A stretch of 58,922 bases of DNA. Source: Aigarchaeota archaeon (lineage in GTDB: Archaea; Thermoproteota; Nitrososphaeria_A; Caldarchaeales; Calditenuaceae). Positions 1-58,922 of this stretch are shown piece after piece. The translations under genes and the position numbers were made by a program. The stretch is from NCBI GenBank assembly GCA_025059745.1, contig JANXDH010000002.1:1-58922 (forward strand), given 5' to 3'. Numbering within the stretch: the first letter of the stretch is position 1; each line of letters opens with the position of its first letter. The notes under the pieces were generated by a model, which did no database searches, was not told the origin of the DNA, and was given only the letters and a program-made list of their open reading frames with translations.

Positions 1-162
1 CACCGTGGTCATCACTGTCCTGGTCACCCTCTCCGTGATCGTAACTGTCTGTTGCGGTACAGATATCGAACCAACGGAGAAACCGGCGACCGCACCGACT
101 ACAAGTAAGACGATCATCAATATCGTCGTCATAGTGCTCGATATCCCTCTTCCTCGATTCAT
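1..162 (-). CDS. Solute-binding protein, N-terminal fragment (runs off left edge)
   Basis: This ORF reads from an ATG at 162 to the first base of the window without a stop, giving 54 residues. It has a short basic start (MNRGRG), a hydrophobic stretch at about residues 11-31 (TTILMIVLLVVGAVAGFSVG) and then a Thr/Val-rich linker. This is the usual layout of archaeal membrane-anchored substrate-binding proteins of ABC importers: a signal/anchor followed by a flexible tether. A TATA box at 184-198 on the same strand lies at leaderless distance. The ligand-binding domain lies outside the window, so the substrate is unknown. Another secreted or membrane-anchored protein remains possible. Confidence 0.6.
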   Translation of the reverse strand, partial: MNRGRGISSTMTTILMIVLLVVGAVAGFSVGSISVPQQTVTITERVTRTVMTTV

Positions 163-7456: not shown

Positions 7457-7759
7457 ATGGGCGTCCCTCTCTTCATATGCAGGAGGTGCGGACGCGCTTA
7501 TCCCAAGCAGAGGTACAGATGTAGAAGGTGTGGATCACCCGAGTTCAACGTACTAGAGGCCTCTCATGGCAAACTCGTCTCATTCACCGAGATACACGCT
7601 GTGAGGGTTGGATTCAAGAGGCCTCTACGGTTGGGAGTGGTGGAACTCGATAATGGCGGCAAGGTCGTTGGCATCCTAGACCTCGCCGACCCCAAGATGG
7701 GCGATAGGGTCGTGGTCACGAGGAACTCTAACCTCAATTTCATCAAGCCGGCAGACTAG
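7457..7759 (+). CDS. DUF35 OB-fold/zinc-ribbon partner of the thiolase-like protein
   Basis: A 100-residue protein with an N-terminal rubredoxin-like zinc ribbon (CRRCG and CRRCG, about residues 8-12 and 22-26) and a C-terminal OB-fold. This is the DUF35 (acyl-CoA-associated) architecture. DUF35 proteins bridge acetoacetyl-CoA thiolase and HMG-CoA synthase in archaea and bind steroid-type aldolases in actinobacteria. Here the ATG follows the thiolase stop with no spacing, so a complex with that protein is very likely. No HMG-CoA synthase gene is nearby. The stop overlaps the convergent transporter ATPase gene by 4 bases. Confidence 0.88.
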   Translation: MGVPLFICRRCGRAYPKQRYRCRRCGSPEFNVLEASHGKLVSFTEIHAVRVGFKRPLRLGVVELDNGGKVVGILDLADPKMGDRVVVTRNSNLNFIKPAD

Positions 7760-8439
7760 ACCCCCACGTACTTCGCATAGAGCTTATAGATATTTGTCCC
7801 CTCATATAACGACTCTGGTCTATCATCGATGGCGAAGGGGCCCGCGATCTTACCCTCTCTCATGAAGATGACCTCGTCTCCTATCTCAGCGGCCTCGAGC
7901 GGGTCGTGCGTGACGTACAGGAAGGGCACTCTTACCCTCTTTAGCTCGGCCCAGAAGAACTTCCTGTTGGGCCAGTCCAAGTGACTGGTTGGCTCATCGA
8001 GCAGCATCACGGACGGCTCCCTCATCAGACACACGTTCAAGAGTAGAACCTTATACTCACCACCGGAGAGGTGATCCTTGTTGAGAAGTCTGCTCATTAC
8101 AGGTGATTCCCTGAACCTCTCCCAGTCGAGACCCCACATCCTCGTGAAGGTCTTGACGATCTCCCTCGGTCTCATCCTTATCAGGGGAACCCTCTGGGGC
8201 ATGTACGCTATGGACCTCCGCTCTGGAGGCAGCCCAGTCACGTCCGACCCGTTCACCGTAATATTACCACGCAGAGGCTTTATGAGTCCTGCTATGCATC
8301 GAAGCAACGTCGTCTTTCCGGACCCGTTATGCCCCAGCAGAACCACCTTCCCATCGACTCTCACACCATCCACGTGGACCTCAAACCCCTTTAACCTCAC
8401 CACCAGGTCACTTACCTCCAGACTACCCATCTCGCTCAC
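7756..8439 (-). CDS. wtpC: Tungstate/molybdate ABC transporter, ATPase
   Basis: A 227-residue ABC ATPase with all motifs intact: Walker A GHNGSGKTT, Q-loop YMPQR, signature LSGGE, Walker B VMLLDEP and H-loop VTHD. It lacks the C-terminal TOBE domain of ModC-like proteins, so it is shorter than usual. It overlaps the permease gene by 17 bases and belongs to the same minus-strand operon as the permease and binding protein. The assignment to oxyanion uptake rests on the WtpA-like binding protein and the divergent ModE-like regulator. Confidence 0.82.
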   Translation of the reverse strand: MSEMGSLEVSDLVVRLKGFEVHVDGVRVDGKVVLLGHNGSGKTTLLRCIAGLIKPLRGNITVNGSDVTGLPPERRSIAYMPQRVPLIRMRPREIVKTFTRMWGLDWERFRESPVMSRLLNKDHLSGGEYKVLLLNVCLMREPSVMLLDEPTSHLDWPNRKFFWAELKRVRVPFLYVTHDPLEAAEIGDEVIFMREGKIAGPFAIDDRPESLYEGTNIYKLYAKYVGV

Positions 8440-9127
8440 CGATCAAGACGAGGAGCGTGGCGAATATCACTGCTATCCCCACCAGTAGCAGGGAGGCGCC
8501 GATGGTGTACGCGAGGCCGCCCATTAGGAACGACTCGTAAATGTATATCCCTGCGGTCACGGGTCTATGAGCGATAATGAGGAAAGCCCCAAGCTCGGAG
8601 AACGACCTCAGCCACGCCAGTAGCAGGCCAAGGACGTGGGACTGAAGGGAGGACCTCGTGTAGAACCAGTAGACCCAGTACTCCTTGACGCCCAGCGGTC
8701 TCAGGAACTCGTTCAACTCAGGCCCCATAGACTTTAGGGCACCCCTCACGGTAGCGAACGATAGTGGGGTAGATACGATCAACATCGCCAAGACTATCGC
8801 GATCCATGTATCGATTGCACCTAGGCCCCTTACCAGCGGTAGAAGTAAAACGCCTATCGCGGTATGGGGGATCGCAATGGGAAACATTATCAGGGGCGTG
8901 AGGAACCTCCTGGATCCGTTCATAGTGAAGTAGGCCAGCACCGAACCCACCGGAGTAGCAATCAGCGCTGCAACGGTTGATGTGAGCGCCGAGTTGACAA
9001 TGGCCGCGATGGCATCGTCTTGGAAGATCATCAACGGGGTATTGATTACTGGCAGGACAATCAACGCAGCCAAGTAGATCGATATTAAGGACAGGGATGC
9101 GAGCAGGATCGGCTGCAGCTTCATCAA
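8423..9127 (-). CDS. wtpB: Tungstate/molybdate ABC transporter, permease
   Basis: A 234-residue inner-membrane permease with five to six hydrophobic helices and the binding-protein-dependent transport signature region around FLRPLGVKEYWVYWF, the EAA-type loop that contacts the ATPase. Length and order (binding protein, permease, ATPase) match WtpABC/ModABC. It is separated from the binding-protein gene by one base and overlaps the ATPase gene. Confidence 0.82.
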   Translation of the reverse strand: MMKLQPILLASLSLISIYLAALIVLPVINTPLMIFQDDAIAAIVNSALTSTVAALIATPVGSVLAYFTMNGSRRFLTPLIMFPIAIPHTAIGVLLLPLVRGLGAIDTWIAIVLAMLIVSTPLSFATVRGALKSMGPELNEFLRPLGVKEYWVYWFYTRSSLQSHVLGLLLAWLRSFSELGAFLIIAHRPVTAGIYIYESFLMGGLAYTIGASLLLVGIAVIFATLLVLIGERDG

Positions 9128-9128
9128 G

Positions 9129-9998
9129 TCACGGGCCCACCCTCATGAGACCGTGTCTCTCTAGCTCCACCGTCCCCATCATCTCTAGTATCCTGTCACC
9201 GCGCTCTGTAAAGGAGACCGCGCTAGCCTCGAACTTTCTGACCTCCACATCACCCACCCTAAGCCTAGCGATGAACCTCATCGGCGGGTCCACAGTGAAC
9301 TCTATCTCAGGGGGGAGATCGATGACGTGATAACGGCCGATGAGACCCTTCCACATGGCGAAAGGTTCGTGGACAAAGATGCAATCTACCAGACCGGCCT
9401 CGAATATGGCGCTGACCTCCGAGAGGTCGTTACGTAATATGAATTGACGGGACGGGTTCAGACCTCTGAGATCGAGCAAGACGCCACCTTCGATGGGATT
9501 CACATTGATGCCCAACAAAACCTGCAACCTATCGGACATTGCAGGGTCTTGGACCTTGAGGAGATAATAAAGGGCCGCAACAGCTCTGTATCCGATGGGC
9601 GCAACGTTCGGGTCAGCGAGCGCAATCGTACGTTCAATTAGTTGATTTAAAGTGAGATTCTCCCTACAGAGGGCGATCAGCCTGTAGCTCCCCAGGCTAA
9701 CGCGATTCCTGTAATCGGGGAGGAACCTCTCGAGCTCGTTATCCGCCAATAAGAGGACGTCTGGTCTACGCCCCTCCCTGATCAATTGAACCGATATGAC
9801 GCTACCGATGACCCTGACGTCCGAATCTGCAGGGGCCCTCGAGAGCACTTCCCTGACGAGTCCGGTGAGCGTGGGTGCCACATAGATCACCGGCCCAGAA
9901 CGCTCCTGCTCACCTATCCGGCCCCATAGCGCGGAGATCGAAATTAGCGCCGCGAAGACTGCCAGTAGGACCGCTAGATTCCTGCGTCCTATATTCAT
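9129..9998 (-). CDS. wtpA: Tungstate/molybdate-binding lipoprotein or anchored protein
   Basis: A 289-residue extracellular binding protein with an N-terminal membrane anchor (residues 6-24, RNLAVLLAVFAALISISAL). The mature part follows the ModA/WtpA pattern: VIGSVISVQLIREGRRPDV, then a stretch ending GSYRLIALCREN, and a DPNVAPIGYRAVAALYYLL segment corresponding to the family's 'DP-x-x-PxGYR' metal-oxyanion site region. WtpA-type proteins prefer tungstate; ModA-type prefer molybdate; the sequence does not settle which. It is the first gene of the operon, with a TATA box at about 10024-10035. Confidence 0.78.
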   Translation of the reverse strand: MNIGRRNLAVLLAVFAALISISALWGRIGEQERSGPVIYVAPTLTGLVREVLSRAPADSDVRVIGSVISVQLIREGRRPDVLLLADNELERFLPDYRNRVSLGSYRLIALCRENLTLNQLIERTIALADPNVAPIGYRAVAALYYLLKVQDPAMSDRLQVLLGINVNPIEGGVLLDLRGLNPSRQFILRNDLSEVSAIFEAGLVDCIFVHEPFAMWKGLIGRYHVIDLPPEIEFTVDPPMRFIARLRVGDVEVRKFEASAVSFTERGDRILEMMGTVELERHGLMRVGP

Positions 9999-10023
9999 AC
10001 CGGATCCCCTGATACGTCCGCAG

Positions 10024-10035
10024 ATATATTAACTG
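10024..10035 (-). promoter_or_regulatory. TATA box of the wtp operon
   Basis: The minus strand reads GTTAATATATCT here, about 26-37 bases before the wtpA ATG at 9998. The element lies just beside the tandem repeats at 10047-10066, so a regulator bound there would be upstream of this promoter. Confidence 0.55.
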
Positions 10036-10046
10036 TTATCAAAAAA

Positions 10047-10066
10047 GTTCATATCGGTTCACATCA
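10047..10066 (+). promoter_or_regulatory. Tandem 10-bp repeat, candidate ModE-like operator
   Basis: Two 10-base direct repeats, GTTCATATCG and GTTCACATCA, agree at 8 of 10 positions and are set exactly one helical turn apart. They lie between the divergent wtpA and modE-like genes. Spacing and place fit an operator read by the ModE-like protein, but no archaeal ModE consensus could be compared here. Confidence 0.4.
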
Positions 10067-10077
10067 AATAAATTAAC

Positions 10078-10605
10078 GTGGTTTGGGGAGGGAAAGTATC
10101 GATCAACGTTGGGGGAACGAAAGTCACTCTTCTCAGGCGTCAACTTGAGTTCCTTAGCAGGGTCGATAAGTGGCAGTCCATCTCGAAGGCCTGTAGGGAG
10201 ATGGGCATCAGCTACAGGACCGGCCTGAAGTGGAGGGCGGATCTGGAGCGCGCGGTGGGTGGCAAACTGATCGATTCATCTAAAGGAGGTAGGGGTGGCG
10301 GGGTCTCAACAACAACACCCCTAGGGGTTGAGGTCCTCCAGTCATATTACATCGCCCTATCGCTCGATAAACCCGGTATGGTGAAGAGCCTGATCGGCTC
10401 GAGGATGAGCGCCCGTAACGTATTGAGGGGGATCGTGAGGGAGGTGACCTGTGACTCACTCATATGCAAGGTCTCCGTCGTGATACAGACACCTCAACCG
10501 TTGGTCGCGCTGATAACAGCGGACGCCGCGAGAGAACTGGATTTGAGGGAGGGCGACTCTGTCTCAGTGGTCCTGAAGGCGCTGGACACTATACTGATCA
10601 AGTGA
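10078..10605 (+). CDS. ModE-like molybdate/tungstate-responsive regulator
   Basis: A 175-residue protein with an N-terminal LysR/ModE-type winged helix (about residues 15-70; KACREMGISYRTGLKWRADL is the helix-turn-helix) and one C-terminal TOBE/Mop domain (about 107-172; MSARNVLRGIVREV and ALITADAARELDLREGD). ModE normally has two Mop domains; archaeal forms with one are known. In this family oxyanion binding to the TOBE domain alters DNA binding. It is divergent from wtpABC and likely controls it. The start is GTG at 10078; no better start is visible. Confidence 0.8.
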   Translation: MVWGGKVSINVGGTKVTLLRRQLEFLSRVDKWQSISKACREMGISYRTGLKWRADLERAVGGKLIDSSKGGRGGGVSTTTPLGVEVLQSYYIALSLDKPGMVKSLIGSRMSARNVLRGIVREVTCDSLICKVSVVIQTPQPLVALITADAARELDLREGDSVSVVLKALDTILIK

Positions 10606-10696: not shown

Positions 10697-11794
10697 ATGG
10701 TGAGCGTTAAAGCATCAGTGCTCTCAGATACGAACGGGAAGTTCTCATTAAAGGAGGTCGAGGTACCTCCCTTGGGCGAGAGATACATCCGCGTAAATGT
10801 CACTACCGCTACTACCTGCGGTACTGACGTGCACATCTGGAAGGGCGAGCTCCCAGCTCCGATGCCGATAATTCTCGGTCACGAGGCCGTAGGTAGGGTC
10901 GATGAGGCACCGGCGAATAGCAAGGATTACCTCGGCAAACCGCTCAAACACGGAGATAGGGTAATCTGGGGGTTCGTGGACCCCTGTAACAGGTGCTACG
11001 TCTGCACCATCGAGAACCTCCCCTCCTCATGTCCAAACCGGAGAGCCTACGGCATTACGGCGGGCTTCAACGATTACCCGCACCTGAACGGAGCCTACGC
11101 TGAGGCCATAATGCTCGGATTGAACACTCCTATATTCAAACTCGAGAACGATATCGACGACGAGATCGTATCGCCGGTCTCCTGCGCCCTATCATCCGTG
11201 ATAAAGGGGATATCGGTCCTAAACCCGCGTTTAATAGACAGGGCGCTCGTCATAGGCGCCGGGCCCTTGGGTATCTACGCGTGCGCATACCTCTCTGAGC
11301 TCGGGGTCTCGAAGATAGTCTCCGCTGATCTGGTGGACGAGAGGTTAAAGATGGCTTCACAGTTCGGCGCTGACTTCACAATAAACATGAAGGAGCATCA
11401 GAGCGTAGAGTCAATAAAGAGAGAACTTCAGAGGTTGTTGGGCGACGAGGGCCCTACTATGGTCGTGGAGGTCGCGGGAGATACCCGTGCTGTTGATCTG
11501 GGCATAGAGGTGCTGTCCAGAGGCGGACGTATCGCGACGGTCGGTGCGGTGGTTAAGGGCGAGGTCCGGTATGACTCACTGATGTTCATCAGGAGGCAGA
11601 TCTCTCTCAGAGGCTCATTGGCATATGAGCCTAGGCACATGCTAGAGGGTATAAGGTTCATAGAGCAGACAGTCGACAAGTACCCATATAGGAAGCTCAT
11701 CGGCGGGACTTACACACTCGCGGACCTCGAGAGGGTCCTGAACGAGATGAGGGAGAAGAGGATCATAAAGGGCGCTATAATGGTGACCCGTTAA
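10697..11794 (+). CDS. Zinc-dependent alcohol dehydrogenase (MDR superfamily)
   Basis: A 365-residue medium-chain dehydrogenase. The catalytic zinc site is visible as TCGTD (Cys) and GHEAVG (His-Glu). The structural zinc loop carries four cysteines in CNRCYVCTIENLPSSC. The NAD(P)-binding motif is IGAGPLGIYACAYL. It oxidises an alcohol or reduces a ketone or aldehyde; the substrate is not evident. The loop sequence resembles threonine/sorbitol-type branches rather than class I ADH. It opens the catabolic island and is convergent, with a 4-base gap, to the cupin gene. Confidence 0.85.
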   Translation: MVSVKASVLSDTNGKFSLKEVEVPPLGERYIRVNVTTATTCGTDVHIWKGELPAPMPIILGHEAVGRVDEAPANSKDYLGKPLKHGDRVIWGFVDPCNRCYVCTIENLPSSCPNRRAYGITAGFNDYPHLNGAYAEAIMLGLNTPIFKLENDIDDEIVSPVSCALSSVIKGISVLNPRLIDRALVIGAGPLGIYACAYLSELGVSKIVSADLVDERLKMASQFGADFTINMKEHQSVESIKRELQRLLGDEGPTMVVEVAGDTRAVDLGIEVLSRGGRIATVGAVVKGEVRYDSLMFIRRQISLRGSLAYEPRHMLEGIRFIEQTVDKYPYRKLIGGTYTLADLERVLNEMREKRIIKGAIMVTR

Positions 11795-11798
11795 CATT

Positions 11799-12317
11799 CT
11801 ACTTTTGATCTTGGCCGACATGAACCATCTTCATAGTCGGAGCCTTTATCTCGATAGCGACGTATTGCGGACTCTCCTCGGGCACCACCCTGTGGGCAAC
11901 ACCTCTAGGTATCAGTATCATCGTACCGGGCGTTAAGACGGCCTTACCCAACTCGGTCTCCCAAGTGACCTTTCCGTTCAAACAGATTATCAGCTCGTCG
12001 TTGTCCATGTTCCTGTGCCAGAACGGCATCGGCCTCCTCCTCTTGGAGACCTCTACTGAGAACCCGTTCACGTACTGGTTCCCCTCGGACGGGTTGGGTG
12101 GGGCTATCCCACCTTGTATGACCTTCCACGTCCCGGCTCCCGCATCTTGATAGTTCGGTGTAATGAACTCGGGTGAGAGCACTTCTAGCTTGAGCGCCGC
12201 GGGGTAGTCCACGTTCAGAGGAATCATCTTCCGCTTCAACCAGTAGTCGGAGCCATTGACTGTCACGCGCTCGTCGACCTCTATAACCTCTCCCTCCGTC
12301 TTGATTGCTTGTGTCAC
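11799..12317 (-). CDS. Cupin-domain protein
   Basis: A 172-residue single-domain cupin (residues about 85-165). The first cupin motif region reads FWHRNMDNDELIICLNGKVTWE and the second TPGTMILIPRGVAHRV. The metal ligands H, D/E and H are largely present. The layout resembles the homogentisate or 3-hydroxyanthranilate dioxygenase cupin, but it is much shorter than homogentisate dioxygenase. It may be a metal-dependent dioxygenase or isomerase acting on an aromatic or ketoacid. A TATA box at about 12337-12355 supports the ATG at 12317. It lies next to the UbiD gene, divergent from it. Confidence 0.75.
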   Translation of the reverse strand: MTQAIKTEGEVIEVDERVTVNGSDYWLKRKMIPLNVDYPAALKLEVLSPEFITPNYQDAGAGTWKVIQGGIAPPNPSEGNQYVNGFSVEVSKRRRPMPFWHRNMDNDELIICLNGKVTWETELGKAVLTPGTMILIPRGVAHRVVPEESPQYVAIEIKAPTMKMVHVGQDQK

Positions 12318-12457
12318 TTCAATCAGTACATCACGTTCTTACGTATATATATTTTCAACGTGGTACAGTTCCGTTGGCGAGAAGTTCCCACAGTAAACTC
12401 GCTCGAGTAATATGAGAATTTCCACTATCGATCTTCTAATTATTAAATATTACCATA

Positions 12458-12480
12458 TTCCATGGAAAAATGATTTATAT
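12458..12480 (+). promoter_or_regulatory. UbiD promoter with adjoining palindrome
   Basis: A perfect 10-base palindrome TTCCATGGAA (12458-12467) is followed by the TATA element GATTTATAT (12472-12480), about 25-30 bases before the ATG at 12505. A palindrome at the position of the BRE suits a repressor or activator site. No regulator can be assigned. Confidence 0.4.
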
Positions 12481-12504
12481 TGGTGAGTAGAGTACTATAT
12501 TGCT

Positions 12505-14043
12505 ATGTCTTTTCAACAATCGGATAAACATAATGACTTGAGGAGCTTCTTAGAGATCCTCGAGCGTGAAGGTCACCTGAGGAGAGTGAAGAACGAAGTC
12601 GATGACAAGCAAGAGATACACTGTATAATGTGGGAGCTTCATGAGAGGTATCACGCGGACGCCCCGACGGTACTCTTTGAGAGAGTCAAAGGCTTCAGGG
12701 TACCGGTGGTGAAAAACGTACTCGGAAGCTTCAAGAGGATGGCTCTCGCATGCAGGATGCCCAACTGGAAGAAGGCCACCAAGAAGGACGTCGTGAAACA
12801 TCTGGTCGCAACGTTCGATGCAAGGGATAAGTGGTTAAAGCCGCGTATCGTCGACAAAAAAGACGCGCCGTGCAAGGAGGTTATAAAGATCGGAGAGAAC
12901 GCAAGTCTACACGAATTGCCTATACTGAAGTGGCATGCGACGGACGGCGGGCCGTTCATACTAATGGGGAATGCAATAACTAAGGACCCGGAATGGGGAC
13001 ATAACGTAGGTACGTATAGGGTTCACATAAAGGGACCGAGAGCTTGTAACGTGGTCGCCAATCAAATGCAGGACATTGGGATCTTTCTCAACAGGGCGAG
13101 GAGGAGAGGAGAAAAGGAGATAGACATCGCTATCGCGATAGGAGGCGATCAAGCCCTCTACATTAGCGCCGGAGTCAAGAACCCGCAGATAGGTAGGGAC
13201 AACGAGTTCATGATAGCCGGCGCTCTGAGGGGTGAACCCCTCGAATTGGTCAAGGGAGAGACAGTTGACGTACTGGTGCCCGCTTCTGCAGAGATCATTA
13301 TAGAGGGCAAACTCAGTACGCAGACGGAGGACCTACAAGATGAGGGGCCGTTCGCAGAGTGGATGGGCTACTCCGGTGCTGTCACGAAACAACCGAGCAT
13401 AAGGGTGACCGCGATAACTCACAGAAAAGATCCGATATTCCAGTCATGCATCTCCGCTCATAGATACAGTGAGACGACCATGCTTTACTCAATACCGTTC
13501 ATAAGGTGGTACTCCCAGATGAGGGAGATCGTACCGGGCTTCAAAGACCTCAACATGCCTGAGGAGCTGAGGATGTACTATGCGGTCATCTCGATCACCA
13601 AGAGGTATCCTGGATGGGGCAAGAACGCCATCTACGCGGCGTTAGGTTCAGGTTACGGACAAGCGAATCTCGTGGGCGTGATAGTGGTAGATGACGACGT
13701 AGATCCATACGACATGGAGCAGGTCTTGACGGCAGTGTCTACGCGTGTAGACCCAGAGCTCGACATAGTGATCCTTCCGCCGAGCACGACACACGCCCTC
13801 AACCCTAGCGCGCGAGCAATACTGCCTGTAAGGGAACCGGGACTCGCTTTCGCCATGTGCTCGAGGATCGGCATAGACGCCACGAGAAAGATGGTCGATG
13901 AGTACGGCAGGAGCAGGGCTACGCCGCTATACGTCGAAAGGGCTCCGGATCAGGAGACGTTAAAGAAGGTAAGGGAGAAGTGGGCTCAATACGGATTAGA
14001 CGTCGACCTCAAGGCCGTTCAGATAGAGCAGCTAGCCAGTTAA
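12505..14043 (+). CDS. UbiD-family prenylated-FMN decarboxylase (first of two)
   Basis: A 512-residue UbiD-family enzyme, full length. It needs the prenylated FMN made by UbiX to remove or add CO2 on an unsaturated or aromatic acid. The N-terminus LRSFLEILEREGHLRRVKNEVD is typical of the family. The prFMN region NVGTYRVHIKGPRACNV is present. The Glu pair of the active site is seen in DEGPFAEWMGY (E-G-P-F-x-E), and PASAEIIIEG precedes it. The gene has its own promoter and is followed by the acyl-CoA-synthetase-like gene on the same strand, 25 bases on, with a ribosome-binding site between. Real substrate unknown. Confidence 0.9.
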   Translation: MSFQQSDKHNDLRSFLEILEREGHLRRVKNEVDDKQEIHCIMWELHERYHADAPTVLFERVKGFRVPVVKNVLGSFKRMALACRMPNWKKATKKDVVKHLVATFDARDKWLKPRIVDKKDAPCKEVIKIGENASLHELPILKWHATDGGPFILMGNAITKDPEWGHNVGTYRVHIKGPRACNVVANQMQDIGIFLNRARRRGEKEIDIAIAIGGDQALYISAGVKNPQIGRDNEFMIAGALRGEPLELVKGETVDVLVPASAEIIIEGKLSTQTEDLQDEGPFAEWMGYSGAVTKQPSIRVTAITHRKDPIFQSCISAHRYSETTMLYSIPFIRWYSQMREIVPGFKDLNMPEELRMYYAVISITKRYPGWGKNAIYAALGSGYGQANLVGVIVVDDDVDPYDMEQVLTAVSTRVDPELDIVILPPSTTHALNPSARAILPVREPGLAFAMCSRIGIDATRKMVDEYGRSRATPLYVERAPDQETLKKVREKWAQYGLDVDLKAVQIEQLAS

Positions 14044-14054
14044 TTTTTTGATTG

Positions 14055-14060
14055 GGTGAG
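14055..14060 (+). promoter_or_regulatory. Ribosome-binding site for the ACD-alpha-like gene
   Basis: GGTGAG lies 8 bases before the ATG at 14069. A Shine-Dalgarno site here, with no TATA box in the 25-base gap, indicates that this gene is translated from the UbiD mRNA. Confidence 0.5.
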
Positions 14061-14068
14061 GCATTTTT

Positions 14069-15466
14069 ATGTCATCCAATCCCCCAAAGCACCCTCTAAA
14101 GTCAGTAATCTATCCTCGTTCAATCGCTGTAATAGGCGCATCGGGCACTCCAGGTAAGATCGGATACCAGATACTCAAGAACGCTATCGACCAGGGATAT
14201 AAGGGTAAGATATTTCCCATAAACCCCTCAGAGAGCGAGATAATGGGCCTGAAGGCACACGCCAACGTGAACGACGTCCCAGAAGAGATCGATCTGGCGT
14301 GCATCATTGTACCCAATAACGTCGTCCCTCAGGTAGTGGAGGAGTGTGGAAAAAAGGGCGTGAAGGGCGTTATAATTTACGCGGGCGGGTTCGCAGAGAT
14401 AGGAGAGAAAGGCGCGGAGCTACAGAGGAAGATCGTTGAGGCAGCGAGCAAGTACGGTTTGAGGGTATTGGGCCCCAACATCAACGGCATGTTCAACGGT
14501 TCCATAAGCCTCAACGTCAGTTTCAACCAGTTCAAGACACTCGACGGTCCCGCGGCAATAGTCAGTCAGAGTGGGAGCTTCGCGAGTGGTGTGGTCTTCG
14601 AGTCGATAAGGTGCGGGTTCGGGTTCAACAAGTTCATAATTTTGGGTAACAGGGCTGACGTAAACGAGATAGAGGCCCTAGATTTCCTCTCATCTGAGCC
14701 GGACGTGAAGGGAATCGCGATGTATCTGGAGTCCATAAGTGACGAGAGGTCATTCATAGAGGTAGCGGCTAGGACCACTAAACAGAAGCCTATAGTCTGC
14801 GTTAAAGCAGGAGTTAGTGATGCAGGAGTACGTGCCATAAAGTACACGACCGCCTCCGAGGTCAAGGGCGACCCCTTCATGAGCTCGATCTTCAAAGAGA
14901 GCGGGGTCGTGATGGTCAAGGACGGTGAGGAACTCGTAGACGCACTCTTCGCTCTAATACACCAACCACTTCCGAGAGGGAATAGAGTGGGGATAGTAAC
15001 TAACTCGGGGGGGATAGCCGTGATATTGACGGACCGGTTGGGTGAGCTGGGGATGAAGGTCCCGCACCTCTCGGAGCCCGTCAGGCAGAAACTCTCCAAG
15101 ATCATGTTGCCCATAGGGAGCGCCCATAACCCAGTCGACCTCACAGGCAGCGTGACCAAGGAGAGCTTCAGGGACTCCCTGACAACCTTGATCGAGAGCG
15201 GAGAGGTCGATTTGGTCATTGCAACTGCGATAAGGTCCCTCTTCTTGCCCCTCGAGATCTTCGAGGGCGCTTATACGGAGGCGGCCGAGATAGCGAGGAG
15301 GAACAGCGTCCCGTTCTTGGTCTGCATGATGGGTGATGATAAGATGTTCGATCTCTTCTCTTCCCTGAGGAGTAAAGGTATACCCTGCTATCCTAGCCCT
15401 GAGAGGGCCGCGAAGAGTGCGTATCATCTTTACGAGTACTCCAAAGTAAGAGAGATAGCTGCGTAA
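14069..15466 (+). CDS. Acyl-CoA synthetase (NDP-forming) alpha-like protein without catalytic His
   Basis: A 465-residue protein with the two parts of the NDP-forming acyl-CoA synthetase alpha subunit. Residues 1-140 form a CoA-binding Rossmann domain (SIAVIGASGTPGKIGY, ending GLRVLGPNINGM). The rest is two flavodoxin-like ligase domains (AIVSQSGSFASG and GIVTNSGGIAVILTD). In active enzymes the segment after SEAGA(K/R)AA reads SHTG, with the phosphorylated His. Here it reads YTTA after SDAGVRAIK, so the His is Thr260 (14846-14848). No ATP-grasp beta subunit is seen in the window. It may bind CoA or acyl-CoA without making ATP, or act as a scaffold for the flanking UbiD enzymes. Confidence 0.85.
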   Translation: MSSNPPKHPLKSVIYPRSIAVIGASGTPGKIGYQILKNAIDQGYKGKIFPINPSESEIMGLKAHANVNDVPEEIDLACIIVPNNVVPQVVEECGKKGVKGVIIYAGGFAEIGEKGAELQRKIVEAASKYGLRVLGPNINGMFNGSISLNVSFNQFKTLDGPAAIVSQSGSFASGVVFESIRCGFGFNKFIILGNRADVNEIEALDFLSSEPDVKGIAMYLESISDERSFIEVAARTTKQKPIVCVKAGVSDAGVRAIKYTTASEVKGDPFMSSIFKESGVVMVKDGEELVDALFALIHQPLPRGNRVGIVTNSGGIAVILTDRLGELGMKVPHLSEPVRQKLSKIMLPIGSAHNPVDLTGSVTKESFRDSLTTLIESGEVDLVIATAIRSLFLPLEIFEGAYTEAAEIARRNSVPFLVCMMGDDKMFDLFSSLRSKGIPCYPSPERAAKSAYHLYEYSKVREIAA

Positions 15467-15489
15467 AAGGAGAGATCTAAAAAAAGTTG

Positions 15490-17118
15490 TTATTTATCCA
15501 TGTAAATCCTCTTCTTCTCTAGTCTCTCCCCGATCTTGTAGTGCTCTCCCTTCAGCAAGAGTTCCGCGTCCATTTCGTGATCCTTCGTCCAGTAACCTAA
15601 ATTATATCCGTACCACGGCGACTTTAGCTTTAGCTCTGGCAGTCCCAACTCCTTCCAGAGCTCTATCGCCCTCTCCATGAACTCCTTCTTTGGTAGGGAG
15701 GTCGGAGGATAGGGGTACTTGGTCGTCGCGTCAATCAATACAGCAGAGCTGCCTATTCTTCCGGGGTACTCCTTCTCCCTAGGCTCTGAATCCGGCCTGT
15801 ATGCTGACACGTCTAATCCAGGTATTCTGCCGTGTATCACCAGCATATCAGTATCGGGTTGCACCCTCCAGCTCAGTGCCCAGATGACCGAGTCGACGTC
15901 CCTGGCATCTATATCCTCGTCTACAACGATGTAGAACTTGCCCCACCTAGCGTCGTATCCCGCGGCGCAGTGGAGTACCTGCCACGGATGTGCGTTGTTG
16001 ACCTTCTTTATCCTTATCACGCACCATTGAGCCTGACTCATCTCATGCCATGCAACGTCGAGTATCCCTGGTAGCTTACAATCGTACTTCAGGTACTTGT
16101 AGTAGAGGTTCTCCGACGAGACGAGCCTGACCTTACTGCTCTCACTCGGCGGGAACTGACTCATGATGTGGACGTATATCGCGTCCCTCCTCATCGTGAC
16201 GGCCGTTACGTGGAAGACAGGCCTGTAAAGGACATCAGTGGCCATGTAACCTGTGTACTCACCGAAGGCGTTTCCGGGCTCCATATACTCGGTAGAGACC
16301 ATCCCCTCTACTATGATCTCCGCATGTGCCGGCACCTCAAGGTCGATCGTCTTACACTTCACTAGTTCGATGGGCTCGTTGGCGAACCCTCCACATACAG
16401 CCAACTCGTCGACGCCATAAGGTAATTTAGCAGACGCAACGTAAAAGAAGATAGGAGGACCACCGATCACTATCGCCGCTGGCATCGGTTTCTTTATCTC
16501 CTTCCACATGTTCCAGTGAATCCATCCGTGATTAGCCCTGCTGATCTCCCATAGTAGTTTTATCTTCCCGAAGACGTGGCCCGAATAATTCCCCATATTC
16601 CTCCACTTTCCATCAGGTGTCTTCGTTATTATGTGGGTCGATGTCCTTATCTGACCGCTGAAGCCGGGGACCTCCACTGGTATGGGCAAGGCCTCTATAC
16701 CCTTCCCGTCCTCCAGTAATTGATCTCCGGTGTAGACTACCTCCTGTACCGGACCTGAACTGACTATCTTCGGCTCTATCGGTTCCTTCACGGCCTTCTC
16801 CCATTTCCTCCCTATGCCCTCATTCGTTGGTTCAGCCATGACTCCCATCGCGTACATCTTTAGACTGGACGCGTAGACTCCAGTCGCTACCTTTGTGGTG
16901 TAACGACGCCCCTTTGCATCTATAACGTTCTCGAAGAGGAAACCTTTCCTCTGATCGTCTGGTAGTCCCCTGAACTGGAGCCTGACAAGAGGTGTGAGCT
17001 CGGTCTCCTTCCGAACGGGCATGGTGACCCTTACCAGCATATCATTCGCTTCTAGAACCCTCAGCCACTCCCTCAGATCCTTGTAGTACCTCTGGGTGAT
17101 CTCTTGAGAGATGACCAT
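15490..17118 (-). CDS. UbiD-family prenylated-FMN decarboxylase (second, divergent paralogue)
   Basis: A 542-residue UbiD-family protein, clearly different from the first (longer, and of the subgroup with SRANHGWIHWNMWKE). The N-terminus LREWLRVLEANDMLVRV, PVEVPGFSG and PAHAEIIVEGMVS are typical. The active-site segment reads EPGNAFGEYTGY. The final Glu (FGE) is kept, but the position five residues before it, Glu in most UbiD proteins, is Gly unless a small shift is allowed. The C-terminus is extended (LELKSPWYGYNL). It is convergent with the ACD-alpha-like gene, with 23 bases between. It could act on a substrate different from the first UbiD, or form a hetero-oligomer with it. Confidence 0.88.
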   Translation of the reverse strand: MVISQEITQRYYKDLREWLRVLEANDMLVRVTMPVRKETELTPLVRLQFRGLPDDQRKGFLFENVIDAKGRRYTTKVATGVYASSLKMYAMGVMAEPTNEGIGRKWEKAVKEPIEPKIVSSGPVQEVVYTGDQLLEDGKGIEALPIPVEVPGFSGQIRTSTHIITKTPDGKWRNMGNYSGHVFGKIKLLWEISRANHGWIHWNMWKEIKKPMPAAIVIGGPPIFFYVASAKLPYGVDELAVCGGFANEPIELVKCKTIDLEVPAHAEIIVEGMVSTEYMEPGNAFGEYTGYMATDVLYRPVFHVTAVTMRRDAIYVHIMSQFPPSESSKVRLVSSENLYYKYLKYDCKLPGILDVAWHEMSQAQWCVIRIKKVNNAHPWQVLHCAAGYDARWGKFYIVVDEDIDARDVDSVIWALSWRVQPDTDMLVIHGRIPGLDVSAYRPDSEPREKEYPGRIGSSAVLIDATTKYPYPPTSLPKKEFMERAIELWKELGLPELKLKSPWYGYNLGYWTKDHEMDAELLLKGEHYKIGERLEKKRIYMDK

Positions 17119-17140
17119 GTATTTTTTCTAAGCCCTGATT

Positions 17141-17152
17141 AATATAAACGTT
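17141..17152 (-). promoter_or_regulatory. TATA box of the second UbiD gene
   Basis: The minus strand reads TTTATATTAATC, about 24-34 bases before the ATG at 17118. This is standard archaeal promoter spacing. Confidence 0.5.
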
Positions 17153-17228
17153 TCTAACCTCACAACATCAGACGCAGTTGGTTGAAAACTCATAAATCTT
17201 ATTAACGCTCCTTCTATCTATATGATTG

Positions 17229-17684
17229 ATGGCGAGGATCATAGGAAAGGTGCTGCCCGAGAGACTGAAGACGTATCTCGAAGAGAACAGGAGGGCGGAC
17301 GAGGGGAGCGCAATATTACTCGCAACAATCGACGGTGAGGGGTTACCACACTTCGCGATGCTGAGCGCGTGGGAGGTGCTCCCGGAGGACGGTAGGTTGA
17401 GGATAGCGACGTATAAGTCGTCTACCACGACGAGGAACATGAAGGAGAGAGGCTCAGTGGCTCTCGCCTTTATTGATAGAGAGATGAGTTACTACGTGAA
17501 GGGCGTGGCTGAGTTCATCAGATTCGAGGAGACTATAAACCCGCCGGTGGCCGTATTCCGAGTGAACATCTCAGCCGTACTGGAGGAGGAGGTCAGCTCG
17601 GAGATCTCGCAAGGTATCAAGTACAGGAAAGACTCTCAGATAGAGCCTCACAAGGAGGTCTTCGAACTGCTCTCGAGGAGGTGA
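17229..17684 (+). CDS. Pyridoxamine-5'-phosphate-oxidase-like FMN-binding protein
   Basis: A 151-residue split-barrel protein of the PNPOx-like/FMN-binding type. The segments AILLATIDGEGLPHFAMLSAWEVL and LRIATYKSSTTTRNMKERGSVALAF are the usual FMN-contacting strands. ATG 17229 gives the N-terminus MARIIGKVLPERL; a TTG immediately before would add one residue. Such proteins are oxidoreductases or FMN reductases. Its place beside UbiX and UbiD suggests help with FMN or prFMN supply or redox state, but that is inference. The 3' end overlaps the convergent UbiX gene by 37 bases. Confidence 0.7.
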   Translation: MARIIGKVLPERLKTYLEENRRADEGSAILLATIDGEGLPHFAMLSAWEVLPEDGRLRIATYKSSTTTRNMKERGSVALAFIDREMSYYVKGVAEFIRFEETINPPVAVFRVNISAVLEEEVSSEISQGIKYRKDSQIEPHKEVFELLSRR

Positions 17685-18265
17685 ACGCCTCCCTTGGGTG
17701 GTCCTGTCCATCTGGTATAGAGATCGTGCTCTATGCCGAGCAAATCGAGTACCTTTCCAACTATGTGATCAACGATCTCCTTAATGGTCTTTGGCCTGTT
17801 GTAGAAGCCCGGCATAGCAGGTACCACTATTGCGCCGCTCTCCGCCGCCAGAAGCAGGTTCCTTATGTGTGGTATCGATAGTGGCGTCTCCCTGGGGACC
17901 AATATCAGCGTCCTCCTCTCCTTCAAGGTCACCAACGCGGCCCTTATCAGGAGGTTCTCCTCATAGCCGTGCGCGATCCCGGCGAGCGTCTTCATGCTAC
18001 AAGGTATCACGACCATGCCGTTGGTAACGAAAGTCCCGCTGGCTATCGCAGCGGATATGTCCATGTGTTTGTAAACTTGATGAGCGAGCGATTCGACGTA
18101 CTCGACCGTGTACTCAGTCTCGAGTACTACCGTCTTTCCTGCTGCGGGGGTCAGAACCAAGTGGACCTCTACCCCCCTCTCCTTGAGCACCTCCAACAAC
18201 CTTATCCCGTATATGACACCGCTACCACCTGACATGCCGACGACAACCCTCATCGTTGAACTCAC
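17648..18265 (-). CDS. ubiX: Flavin prenyltransferase UbiX
   Basis: A 205-residue UbiX-family protein that makes prenylated FMN from FMN and dimethylallyl (pyro)phosphate, the cofactor of UbiD enzymes. Seen: the phosphate loop VGMSGGSGVIYG at the N-terminus, VTNGMVVIPCSMKTLAGIAHG, and the conserved LVPRETPLSIPHIRNLL and VVPAMPGFYNRPKT. The last 20 residues extend past the usual end and lie in the overlap with the convergent FMN-binding gene. A start at the second Met would trim only four residues. With two UbiD genes close by, this is their likely cofactor source. Confidence 0.92.
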   Translation of the reverse strand: MSSTMRVVVGMSGGSGVIYGIRLLEVLKERGVEVHLVLTPAAGKTVVLETEYTVEYVESLAHQVYKHMDISAAIASGTFVTNGMVVIPCSMKTLAGIAHGYEENLLIRAALVTLKERRTLILVPRETPLSIPHIRNLLLAAESGAIVVPAMPGFYNRPKTIKEIVDHIVGKVLDLLGIEHDLYTRWTGPPKGGVHLLESSSKTSL

Positions 18266-18334
18266 GTAGTATAGGTCGACTTATCGGATTTAAGTCTTAA
18301 TGAACTATAGCGAAAACGGACTCAATCGAGTCAA

Positions 18335-19210
18335 TTAACCACTAAGAAGACTGTCTATGTCATGATAAGCCTTATAATTGATTATCTCGTAGAACTCGTC
18401 GCGCGTCGTCATCTTATCCAACAGTCTCGCCTGTGTCCCCTCCTCTCTTATCGTTCTGAGAGCCTCTATAGTGGACTTGACGCACGTCCTGAACGTTGTG
18501 ACGGGAAATATGACGAACCTATATCCCAACTCACCGAACCTCTTCACAGAGATATAGGGTGTTTTGCCGAACTCGGTCATGTTGGCTAGTAGGGGGGCGT
18601 CGACACTCGATGCGTAGACCTCGAATTCTTTCTCTGACTCTAGGGCCTCGGGGAAGATCACGTCCGCTCCGGCCCTCGCGTAAAGCCTCCCCCTCCTGAT
18701 CGCATCGTCTATCCCAAACACAGACCTAGAGTCGACCCGCGCAATTATGACAGTGTCCGTATGACCCCTCGCAATAAGAGCAGCTTTTATCTTCTTGACC
18801 ATCTGATCGGGGTCGATTACCTCCTTACCGTCAAGGTGACCGCACCTCTTGGGCATAACTTGGTCCTCGATCTGAATAGCAGAGGCGCCAGCGTCTATCA
18901 GTTCTCTAACGGCCCTCATGACGTTGATCGGCTCACCGAAACCGGTATCAGCGTCGACGATCAGAGGTATCTTCGTGACCGACGTGATCCTTCGCGTGAA
19001 GAAGACGAGCTCGTCAAGCGTTATGAGACCGATGTCGGGTAGACCTAAGCTCCCGCTCAGAGCAGCACCGCTTAGGTAAACGGCCTCGAACCCTAACCTA
19101 TCCGCCAACAACGCGCCGATGGGATTGTAGACCCCCGGTATCGGGTGTACGCCACCCCTCATCAATTCTCTGATCGGGTTACCAGTAGTTGACGGACCCC
19201 CCGAGTTCAT
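18335..19210 (-). CDS. Isocitrate lyase/PEP-mutase family enzyme (methylisocitrate-lyase-like)
   Basis: A 291-residue TIM-barrel lyase when started at the ATG at 19210, matching the family's usual 280-300 residues. The open frame runs 53 codons further upstream, but that part overlaps the zinc-finger gene on the other strand. It also lies upstream of a TATA box (19236-19247) positioned for the 19210 start. Catalytic features: DADTGFGEP, the general base loop KRCGH and ARVDSR. Family members cleave 2-methylisocitrate, dimethylmalate or oxaloacetate, or make phosphonates. The substrate is not clear. It lies at the end of the catabolic island. Confidence 0.85.
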   Translation of the reverse strand: MNSGGPSTTGNPIRELMRGGVHPIPGVYNPIGALLADRLGFEAVYLSGAALSGSLGLPDIGLITLDELVFFTRRITSVTKIPLIVDADTGFGEPINVMRAVRELIDAGASAIQIEDQVMPKRCGHLDGKEVIDPDQMVKKIKAALIARGHTDTVIIARVDSRSVFGIDDAIRRGRLYARAGADVIFPEALESEKEFEVYASSVDAPLLANMTEFGKTPYISVKRFGELGYRFVIFPVTTFRTCVKSTIEALRTIREEGTQARLLDKMTTRDEFYEIINYKAYHDIDSLLSG

Positions 19211-19235
19211 GGTCTCTCTCCACGAGGTATCGATA

Positions 19236-19268
19236 AGTTTTAAACTTTGTAACGTGGATAAACTTATA
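19236..19268. promoter_or_regulatory. Divergent promoters, lyase / mini zinc finger
   Basis: The minus-strand TATA TTTAAAACTT (19236-19247) serves the lyase ATG at 19210. The plus-strand element ACTTATA (19262-19268) serves the zinc-finger gene. This arrangement decides both start codons. Confidence 0.5.
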
Positions 19269-19297
19269 GAGTGGGCCTCCTCCATATGGGAGATGGT

Positions 19298-19426
19298 ATG
19301 TCTGAGAGCGGAGTCAAGTGCCCGTACTGCGGTGCGAATTATAAGACGAACGCCGAGCTCTCCAAACACATAGACCGCTTACATATAGGCAGCGGTCTCT
19401 TGGAGGGTGACAAGACGAAGTATTGA
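19298..19426 (+). CDS. Mini C2H2 zinc-finger protein (42 residues)
   Basis: A small ORF with ATG 19298 and stop 19424-19426; an in-frame ATG at 19286 would add four residues. The product has one C2H2 finger: CPYC, twelve residues, then H, four residues, H (CPYCGANYKTNAELSKHIDRLH), followed by a short polar tail. Archaeal single-finger proteins of this size are known but their roles are mostly not. DNA or RNA binding is plausible. The ORF has its own TATA box at the right distance. The neighbours give no functional clue. Confidence 0.65.
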   Translation: MSESGVKCPYCGANYKTNAELSKHIDRLHIGSGLLEGDKTKY

Positions 19427-58180: not shown

Positions 58181-58922
58181 TCATCTAATCTCCCCCATCA
58201 CGACCCTTATCCGGTCCGTAAACTTGTTGAGTTCCTCATCAGTCAAGATCTTTCCCAGTTGTACCTTGTAGTTAGGCGGTATCGACTTCACCAACGTGTG
58301 AGTTGGGTAGTTCGGATTAATCACGGCAGGTATCTCTCCGACCTCCTGAAGAACCCGCCCACCCTCGTTTACTAAATAGGTGATGAATAGTCTAGCCGCG
58401 TTCGGGTTCTGTGCCCTCGATGCCATAGAGACCGGTGTAGAGAACCCAAACATGGGGTTTATCCAGACCCAGGCTATGGGCGCGTTCCTTGAGATAGGTG
58501 GTGGTAAGTTCGAGGAGACGACTAACCCGACGGCCGCCTCTCCGACCTCTACCGCACTCATCACAGGTACAGGTTCAGACCTCCACGTTGGCCTGTTAGC
58601 GAGCACGCCCCTCATCCAATCCCAGAACTTCTGTTCGCCCCACATTTGGTTCAGGGGTATCAGAAGGTACATGACCACAGGCCAGTAGGTTATGAAGTCT
58701 GTCAGTACGAGCCTCCCCCTCCACTCCGGTCTAGCTAGGTCCTCTAAAGAGGTCGGCGCCCGATCAGGCGGTACTAAGCGCGTGTTGTATGATATCAACC
58801 AGACGACGTTCCTCACCGCGTATCCTATGTCGAGTATTAGTTCCCTCGGGAAGTCATCAGGCATGGATACTGTTGGCGGTCTCGATAAGATGATTCCCTC
58901 GCGGAGGAACAAAGCCATGGTC
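58181..58922 (-). CDS. Extracellular solute-binding protein, C-terminal part (runs off right edge)
   Basis: 247 codons of an open frame that reaches the right edge. The sequence follows type II (thiamine/iron/polyamine-type) binding proteins: VVWLISYNTRLVPPDRAPTSLEDLARPEWRGRLVLTD is the diagnostic segment with PxSxxDLxxPxWxGK-like spacing, and RAQNPNAARLFITYLVNEGGRVLQ the C-terminal conserved region. The N-terminus and signal peptide lie outside. It may supply an importer whose other genes lie beyond the window. The ligand is unknown. Confidence 0.85.
   Translation of the reverse strand, partial: TMALFLREGIILSRPPTVSMPDDFPRELILDIGYAVRNVVWLISYNTRLVPPDRAPTSLEDLARPEWRGRLVLTDFITYWPVVMYLLIPLNQMWGEQKFWDWMRGVLANRPTWRSEPVPVMSAVEVGEAAVGLVVSSNLPPPISRNAPIAWVWINPMFGFSTPVSMASRAQNPNAARLFITYLVNEGGRVLQEVGEIPAVINPNYPTHTLVKSIPPNYKVQLGKILTDEELNKFTDRIRVVMGEIR

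Follow-up and report, generated by a model that had tools for sequence, protein, structure and literature searches.

What could a pair of UbiD-type (de)carboxylases do beside a coenzyme A (CoA)-binding protein without its ligase residue, and are the three parts of one enzyme? The question is raised by an eight-gene island in a 58,922-nucleotide stretch of DNA from an Aigarchaeota archaeon (hereafter the window; bases 1–58922 of contig C6), whose 1.17 Mb genome (G000) is in six contigs and 88.8% complete. An earlier reading of the letters, the original prediction, proposed that the two UbiD proteins and the CoA-binding protein form or serve a single (de)carboxylase system for an aromatic or unsaturated acid. 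Our analysis points elsewhere. One of the two proteins, UbiD2, belongs to a conserved archaeal group of UbiD proteins without the catalytic Arg and the first catalytic Glu. The island may serve as the prenylated flavin mononucleotide (prFMN) hub for a set of enzymes, probably acquired, that handles aromatic or unsaturated acids, with the altered UbiD2 class and a His-less ACD-alpha-like protein in the roles proposed below; as a whole, we give this account an even chance. The altered UbiD2 and the likeness of an FMN-binding protein to a prFMN maturase both go beyond the original prediction. The island itself proved real, each of its eight genes having a Pfam match at or near its predicted position:

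10697..11794, + strand: zinc alcohol dehydrogenase family protein (PF00107 and PF08240 over cut-off; no NCBIfam equivalog cut-off reached)
11799..12317, − strand: small cupin (PF07883 barely over cut-off, 27.8 versus 27.2 bits)
12505..14043, + strand: UbiD1, canonical UbiD-type (de)carboxylase (PF01977, PF20695, PF20696; motif EGPFAEWMGY)
14069..15466, + strand: ACD-alpha-like CoA-binding protein (PF13380, PF13607, PF19045)
15490..17118, − strand: UbiD2, variant UbiD of the Ser-Gly-Glu (S-G-E) type (PF01977, PF20696)
17226..17684, + strand: PNPOx-like FMN-binding protein, candidate PhdC-type prFMN maturase (PF01243)
17648..18265, − strand: UbiX flavin prenyltransferase (NF004685 and TIGR00421 over cut-off; best PDB match 1sbz)
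18335..19369, − strand: methylisocitrate-lyase (PrpB/PEP-mutase) family protein (TIGR02317, 381.8 bits versus a cut-off of 354.4)

UbiD2 belongs to a conserved Arg-less type

UbiD2 has the Rift and C domains of the family, with no UbiD_N match listed, and falls below the NCBIfam UbiD cut-off (227.2 versus 244.85 bits). Its AlphaFold2 model (pLDDT 83.9) retrieves UbiD folds in Foldseek (5m1d, E 8.1e-43). In place of the Arg-Glu-Glu/Asp set, the active site has Ser for Arg and Gly for the first Glu, and the last Glu is kept. The genome encodes five UbiD proteins, of which the paralogue on contig C1 is Ser-Gln-Glu (S-Q-E) and that on contig C2 is Arg-Glu-Glu (R-E-E). In the tree, UbiD2 and the C1 paralogue are sisters (support 99/97), within a clade that includes the C2 protein and R-E-E proteins of Rhizobiaceae and Paraburkholderia. 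On C1 (L075, 1654–5987), the S-Q-E gene lies beside an amidohydrolase_2 gene and a thiamine pyrophosphate (TPP) enzyme.

The same alterations recur in G328, an archaeon of another order, whose S-G-E protein is 63% identical to UbiD2 over 533 residues and whose S-Q-E protein is 67.5% identical to the C1 paralogue; the two genes lie 3.4 kb apart there, and the segments GNAFGEYTGYM and PQPPFGEYTGYM are unchanged in its altered UbiDs. Because of this recurrence across orders, the altered UbiD looks like a selected variant and not a product of decay. A congener of G328, G533, encodes S-G-E proteins 89% and 87% identical to that of G328, one on each of two contigs, and over 375 codons the G328 and G533 genes differ with pN 0.081 against pS 0.80. 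The active-site Ser is encoded by TCG, TCC and TCA in the S-G-E type and by TCA and AGC in the S-Q-E type. Synonymous divergence (dS) is saturated and undefined in four of five pairs, and the sole ratio obtained (0.147, UbiD2 versus G328) has a dS of 2.05, near saturation; the selection argument therefore leans on pN and pS only.

The type is rare. A profile search of 398 phylum genomes (E≤1e-75) found the UbiD2 clade in two, G000 and G328, and a search of the 214 genomes of the G328 order (E≤1e-60) found it in G328 and G533. Within the own order, the clade was seen in none of the other 43 genomes, those covered by the phylum search giving no match; with a general UbiD profile over all 44, scores above 550 bits were reached by own-genome members alone. 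A census of 94 distinct UbiD frames, leaning to this phylum (at least 350 amino acids between stops, E≤1e-30, duplicates and shorter frames removed), found the Arg kept in 89, one of which has Asp as the first Glu; the five exceptions are all S-G-E or S-Q-E.

What such a protein does can be narrowed. UbiD2 is likely no standard decarboxylase, because the Arg that holds the substrate carboxylate is gone, and a conserved protein altered in this way may do something not yet known of UbiD enzymes. In work on Fdc1, the E277Q variant reaches an apparent kcat of 0.3 per min at most, compared with 9.4 per s, and R173A shows low activity only (PMC5818171); PMC8379154 terms the ERE motif UbiD-conserved, and a partial literature search found no report of a natural UbiD without it. 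We tentatively suggest that S-G-E and S-Q-E proteins are a new catalytic class of prFMN enzymes, possibly acting as a pair, for ligands that present no free carboxylate where one normally binds, for example a thioester, aldehyde, ketone or unsubstituted ring.

The S-G-E and S-Q-E proteins might alternatively be non-catalytic or regulatory subunits of a complex with a canonical R-E-E UbiD, which we regard as rather doubtful. Two of three genomes do combine both altered types, together with one or more R-E-E UbiDs, and complexes with several UbiD-like subunits are described for naphthalene and phenylphosphate carboxylases (PMC10570749 and PMC12016498). Both UbiD subunits of our phenylphosphate carboxylase control, alpha and beta, keep R-E-E, however, while UbiD2 retains the last Glu and the UbiD fold, and the altered genes lie on different contigs in G000.

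UbiD1 is canonical and belongs to a CoA-linked clade

UbiD1 exceeds the Pfam cut-offs for the N, Rift and C domains of UbiD and the NCBIfam UbiD cut-off (321.8 versus 244.85 bits), and its catalytic Arg-Glu-Glu is intact. By sequence it is an ordinary prFMN (de)carboxylase, predicted to act in a pathway where the acid is handled as a CoA thioester. A scan of genome contigs with this single protein, which may omit records very near the own genome, returned five loci. Four of them (L113–L116), from metagenome-assembled genomes of Dehalococcoidales, Desulfovibrio, Bacillota and Dethiobacter, encode UbiDs 39–41% identical to UbiD1 that have the EGPFAEWMGY motif and form one clade with it (support 100/99). 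A CoA-ligase-type (PaaK-like) gene adjoins the UbiD in all four (identified in L113 and L114 by the profiles PF00501 and PF14535, and in L115 and L116 from sequence similarity). Three (L114–L116) continue with a second UbiD, a binding protein and a TRAP-type transporter, the last two recognised by profile in L115 and by eye in L116 and the incomplete L114; the tree did not confirm a suspected link of this second UbiD to the UbiD on contig C3. L117, the fifth locus (27%), falls in a different UbiD clade, and no ligase was seen by eye in its 11 kb. Across the 398 phylum genomes, UbiD1 has its best-scoring match at 38% identity and its highest identity in G244 (41% over 313 residues).

These data bear directly on the single system first proposed for UbiD1, the ACD-alpha-like protein and UbiD2. 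Their genes are clustered in 4.6 kb, the first two co-directional and 25 bp apart, and in the bacterial L114–L116 a UbiD1-like gene is followed by a CoA-ligase-type gene and then by a second UbiD. That second UbiD is not UbiD2-like in the tree, however; the two UbiDs of the island are in different clades, and UbiD2 is encoded, like UbiX and the PrpB family protein, on the strand opposite UbiD1 and the ACD-alpha-like gene. UbiD2 orthologues occur in G328 and G533. The phylum search for UbiD1, which took in G328 but not G533, gave no match in G328 at E≤1e-50. The ACD-alpha-like protein, moreover, is without its ligase His. As far as searched, the UbiD/ACD-alpha-like/UbiD trio was found in no relative, and a joint system of the three is quite improbable. 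What survives of the original prediction is that the genes probably form a catabolic cluster that depends on prFMN and is linked to CoA, the link being drawn from the CoA-ligase-type gene in all four UbiD1-clade loci and from the C3 UbiD, which lies near a His-containing ACD alpha/beta pair; the two UbiDs and the CoA protein as a unit do not.

The ACD-alpha-like protein is without its catalytic His

The CoA-ligase subunit had been called inactive-looking, and the alignment bears this out. The protein has the CoA-binding and ligase-CoA domains and the ACD fold, and scores under the NCBIfam cut-off (437 versus 567). Aligned to 2csu and 4xyl, its catalytic (phospho)His is replaced by Thr. Among 32 distinct ACD-alpha homologues (at least 300 amino acids, E≤1e-20; mostly from 30 loci of best matches, with 321 of 398 genomes matched), it is the sole exception, the other 31 all having His. 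Its AlphaFold2 model has a pLDDT of 90.9, and the top Foldseek match is 4ybz (TMq 0.93). No beta subunit (ATP-grasp_5, PF13549) is encoded on its contig; the three PF13549 matches of the genome lie elsewhere, one on C3 beside the other alpha (265.5 bits) and two on C2 (46.8 and 25.3 bits). The catalytic His is likewise not known from the ACD-like domain of Pat. The window protein probably binds CoA or a CoA thioester without ligase chemistry, as a carrier, sensor or partner.

Is the ACD-alpha-like gene, and perhaps also UbiD2, simply decaying? Key catalytic residues are gone from both proteins, and four of the 13 conserved columns lost by the ACD-alpha-like protein lie in the His loop. It retains 60 of the 73 columns conserved among the others, however, and the C3 ACD alpha, which keeps its His, loses 16, more than the His-less protein; loss count alone is therefore no mark of decay. 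Both reading frames are intact and the ACD-alpha-like model is well ordered, and for UbiD2 the altered residues are preserved in G328 and G533 as described above. We consider decay improbable.

The C3 ACD alpha adjoins its beta, and a single DUF169 gene separates the pair from a UbiD. Near this canonical UbiD set lie a cyclase gene and a gene of the lactate-racemase type (PF09861/PF21113), the latter with neighbours that look lar-like by eye (L077, 1801–11502). A UbiD near an ACD alpha in genus g30 (L147–L149) was rejected as conserved synteny and read as quinone context and coincidence, because the UbiD adjoins a UbiA-like prenyltransferase and a channel-like gene separates it from the ACD alpha (by eye).

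UbiX and the PNPOx-like protein in a proposed prFMN supply

The island had been credited with its own UbiX. This is the sole UbiX found in the genome, the other of two PF02441 matches having a DFP domain (CoaBC type), but it would then have to serve all five UbiDs and not this island alone. None of the 11 other family genomes (57–95% complete) has a UbiX match, and none has a UbiD match at E≤1e-3; the repertoire was therefore probably acquired.

The PNPOx-like gene and UbiX are convergent and overlap by 37 bp. The convergent order recurs in G328, although the UbiD/ACD/UbiD trio, as far as searched, does not. The best PDB match of the PNPOx-like protein is PhdC (9srg), at a weak E of 0.0045; the G328 homologue, 31% identical to the window protein, matches 9srg at 3.5e-7. 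The position of PhdC Glu47 is Glu in the window protein and Gln in G328, and Glu136 was placed by spacing only, by eye. According to PMC13040415, PhdC (9srg, 9srj) is a prFMN maturase, the PhdC-like set is all from Actinomycetota, and YclD of Priestia, though only distantly homologous, can activate UbiD as well. The PNPOx gene of the phenylphosphate carboxylase locus encodes a protein only 20% identical to that of the window.

Probable catabolic context and neighbouring genes

In G328, the island further includes genes for a Rieske oxygenase, a CoA ligase, an MFS transporter and TPP enzymes, as well as for a protein orthologous to the C3 UbiD (63%), contents that point to aromatic catabolism. 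One of its TPP enzymes is 42% identical to that beside the S-Q-E gene on C1. Contig C2 (L076, 6917–18575) carries BKACE, isochorismatase, the R-E-E UbiD and an XDH large subunit, with LLM-type, nitrilase-like and second XDH genes by eye, a set that may serve heteroaromatic catabolism.

A biosynthetic role for the UbiDs and UbiX, in the archaeal mevalonate or a quinone route, would fit other loci: UbiX lies beside a short UbiD in six of 15 loci checked in family f3 of the same order (1.5-kb flanks), and in L148 a UbiD adjoins a gene judged by eye to be UbiA-like. None of the five own-genome UbiDs groups with these proteins in the tree, however; the genome's other UbiDs neighbour XDH, BKACE, isochorismatase, amidohydrolase and TPP enzymes, and all 11 other family members are without a UbiX or UbiD match. 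We judge this role very unlikely.

The remaining island genes are less specific. The cupin has weak PDB matches to the cupin 3d82 and to homogentisate dioxygenase. The PrpB family protein shows homology only from residue 67 onwards, and its real start codon may thus lie inside the called frame. Ahead of the island lies a further set:

7756..10605, mixed strands: ABC transporter genes (−) and a ModE/Mop-type regulator (+)

The ATPase and permease of this set were assigned by eye; 9129–9998 has a weak binding-protein match, and 10078–10605 matches TOBE, Mop and ModE. The set probably serves tungstate or molybdate. At the far end of the window, a binding-protein-like gene (58181–58918) resembles those on C1 (L075, 5992–9516) at about 68% DNA identity. 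An exact 125-bp repeat in the same orientation lies near the starts of C6 (window 1–125) and C1 (L075, 105–229); it was not used to join the contigs, since the match is no end overlap. Elsewhere, G029, of the same order, has eight UbiD matches (L078, L079), three on one 10-kb contig. In G138, from another part of the phylum (L152, 2246–10451), a UbiD 51% identical to phenylphosphate carboxylase beta overlaps an AMP-forming CoA ligase, and UbiX is preceded by a flavin reductase.

Proposed mechanism

In the account we prefer, the prFMN hub, UbiX would make reduced prFMN (prFMNH2) for the cluster, and the PNPOx-like protein may help oxidise it to the active form. UbiD1 would use prFMN to add or remove CO2, the acid it consumes or forms being processed as a CoA thioester, and the ACD-alpha-like protein would probably bind that thioester or CoA as carrier, sensor or partner. 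UbiD2, of a separate conserved class, would most likely use its prFMN pocket and remaining Glu on a ligand bound otherwise than by the carboxylate-holding Arg.

Several points weigh against this account. The active-site loop of the UbiD2 model (287–295) is of low confidence, G533 (87% complete) shows the S-G-E type only, and bacterial Arg-less UbiDs were judged within the retrieved loci. The similarity of the window protein to PhdC is weak, and the G328 homologue has Gln at the Glu47 position. The His-less ACD alpha is known from one genome only, where decay of the gene is possible. The catabolic role is read from neighbouring genes, and at the Phyllobacterium locus, which encodes one of the bacterial relatives of UbiD2, neither XDH nor TPP genes are annotated within the stretch.

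Comparison with known systems

PhdC, like the window protein, is a small PNPOx-type protein whose gene adjoins UbiX; relative to the Actinomycetota set described above, the window protein is archaeal and weakly similar. The Candidatus Korarchaeum ACD1 alpha subunit (4xyl, 4ybz) and PatZ (9it0) share the fold and most conserved positions with the ACD-alpha-like protein, which, unlike ACD1 alpha, has no catalytic His and no adjoining beta subunit. The island is thus of interest for two further proteins, a putative prFMN maturase from an archaeon and an ACD alpha that naturally lacks the His and is encoded beside a UbiD.

Phenylphosphate and naphthalene carboxylases involve several UbiD proteins in one organism, as in this genome. 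Unlike UbiD2, the phenylphosphate carboxylase subunits keep R-E-E, and both window proteins score far under the NCBIfam cut-offs for the beta (468.95) and alpha (564.6) subunits, UbiD1 reaching 157.5 and 127.9 bits and UbiD2 101.3 and 104.8 bits, respectively. The best PDB matches of UbiD1, HmfF (6h6v) and the phenolic acid decarboxylase 7ae4, which we take to be VdcC-type, have the same UbiD domains and R-E-E; unlike them, UbiD1 sits in its own clade with bacterial CoA-ligase-linked UbiDs.

The nearest bacterial relatives found for UbiD2 are plasmid UbiDs of Rhizobiaceae, Phyllobacterium and Paraburkholderia (37–41%), near XDH, UbiX and a TPP enzyme in Neorhizobium and near UbiX in Paraburkholderia; unlike UbiD2, the three full-length relatives checked keep R-E-E. 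Aspergillus niger Fdc1 and Escherichia coli UbiD share the fold (Foldseek) and the last catalytic Glu with the UbiD2 model, in which Ser and Gly correspond to Arg173 and Glu277 of Fdc1. The Arg-Glu-Glu/Asp network is described, in the sources cited above, as UbiD-conserved and needed for activity; two archaeal groups that appear to be selected without the Arg and the first Glu would allow prFMN chemistry to be probed without it.

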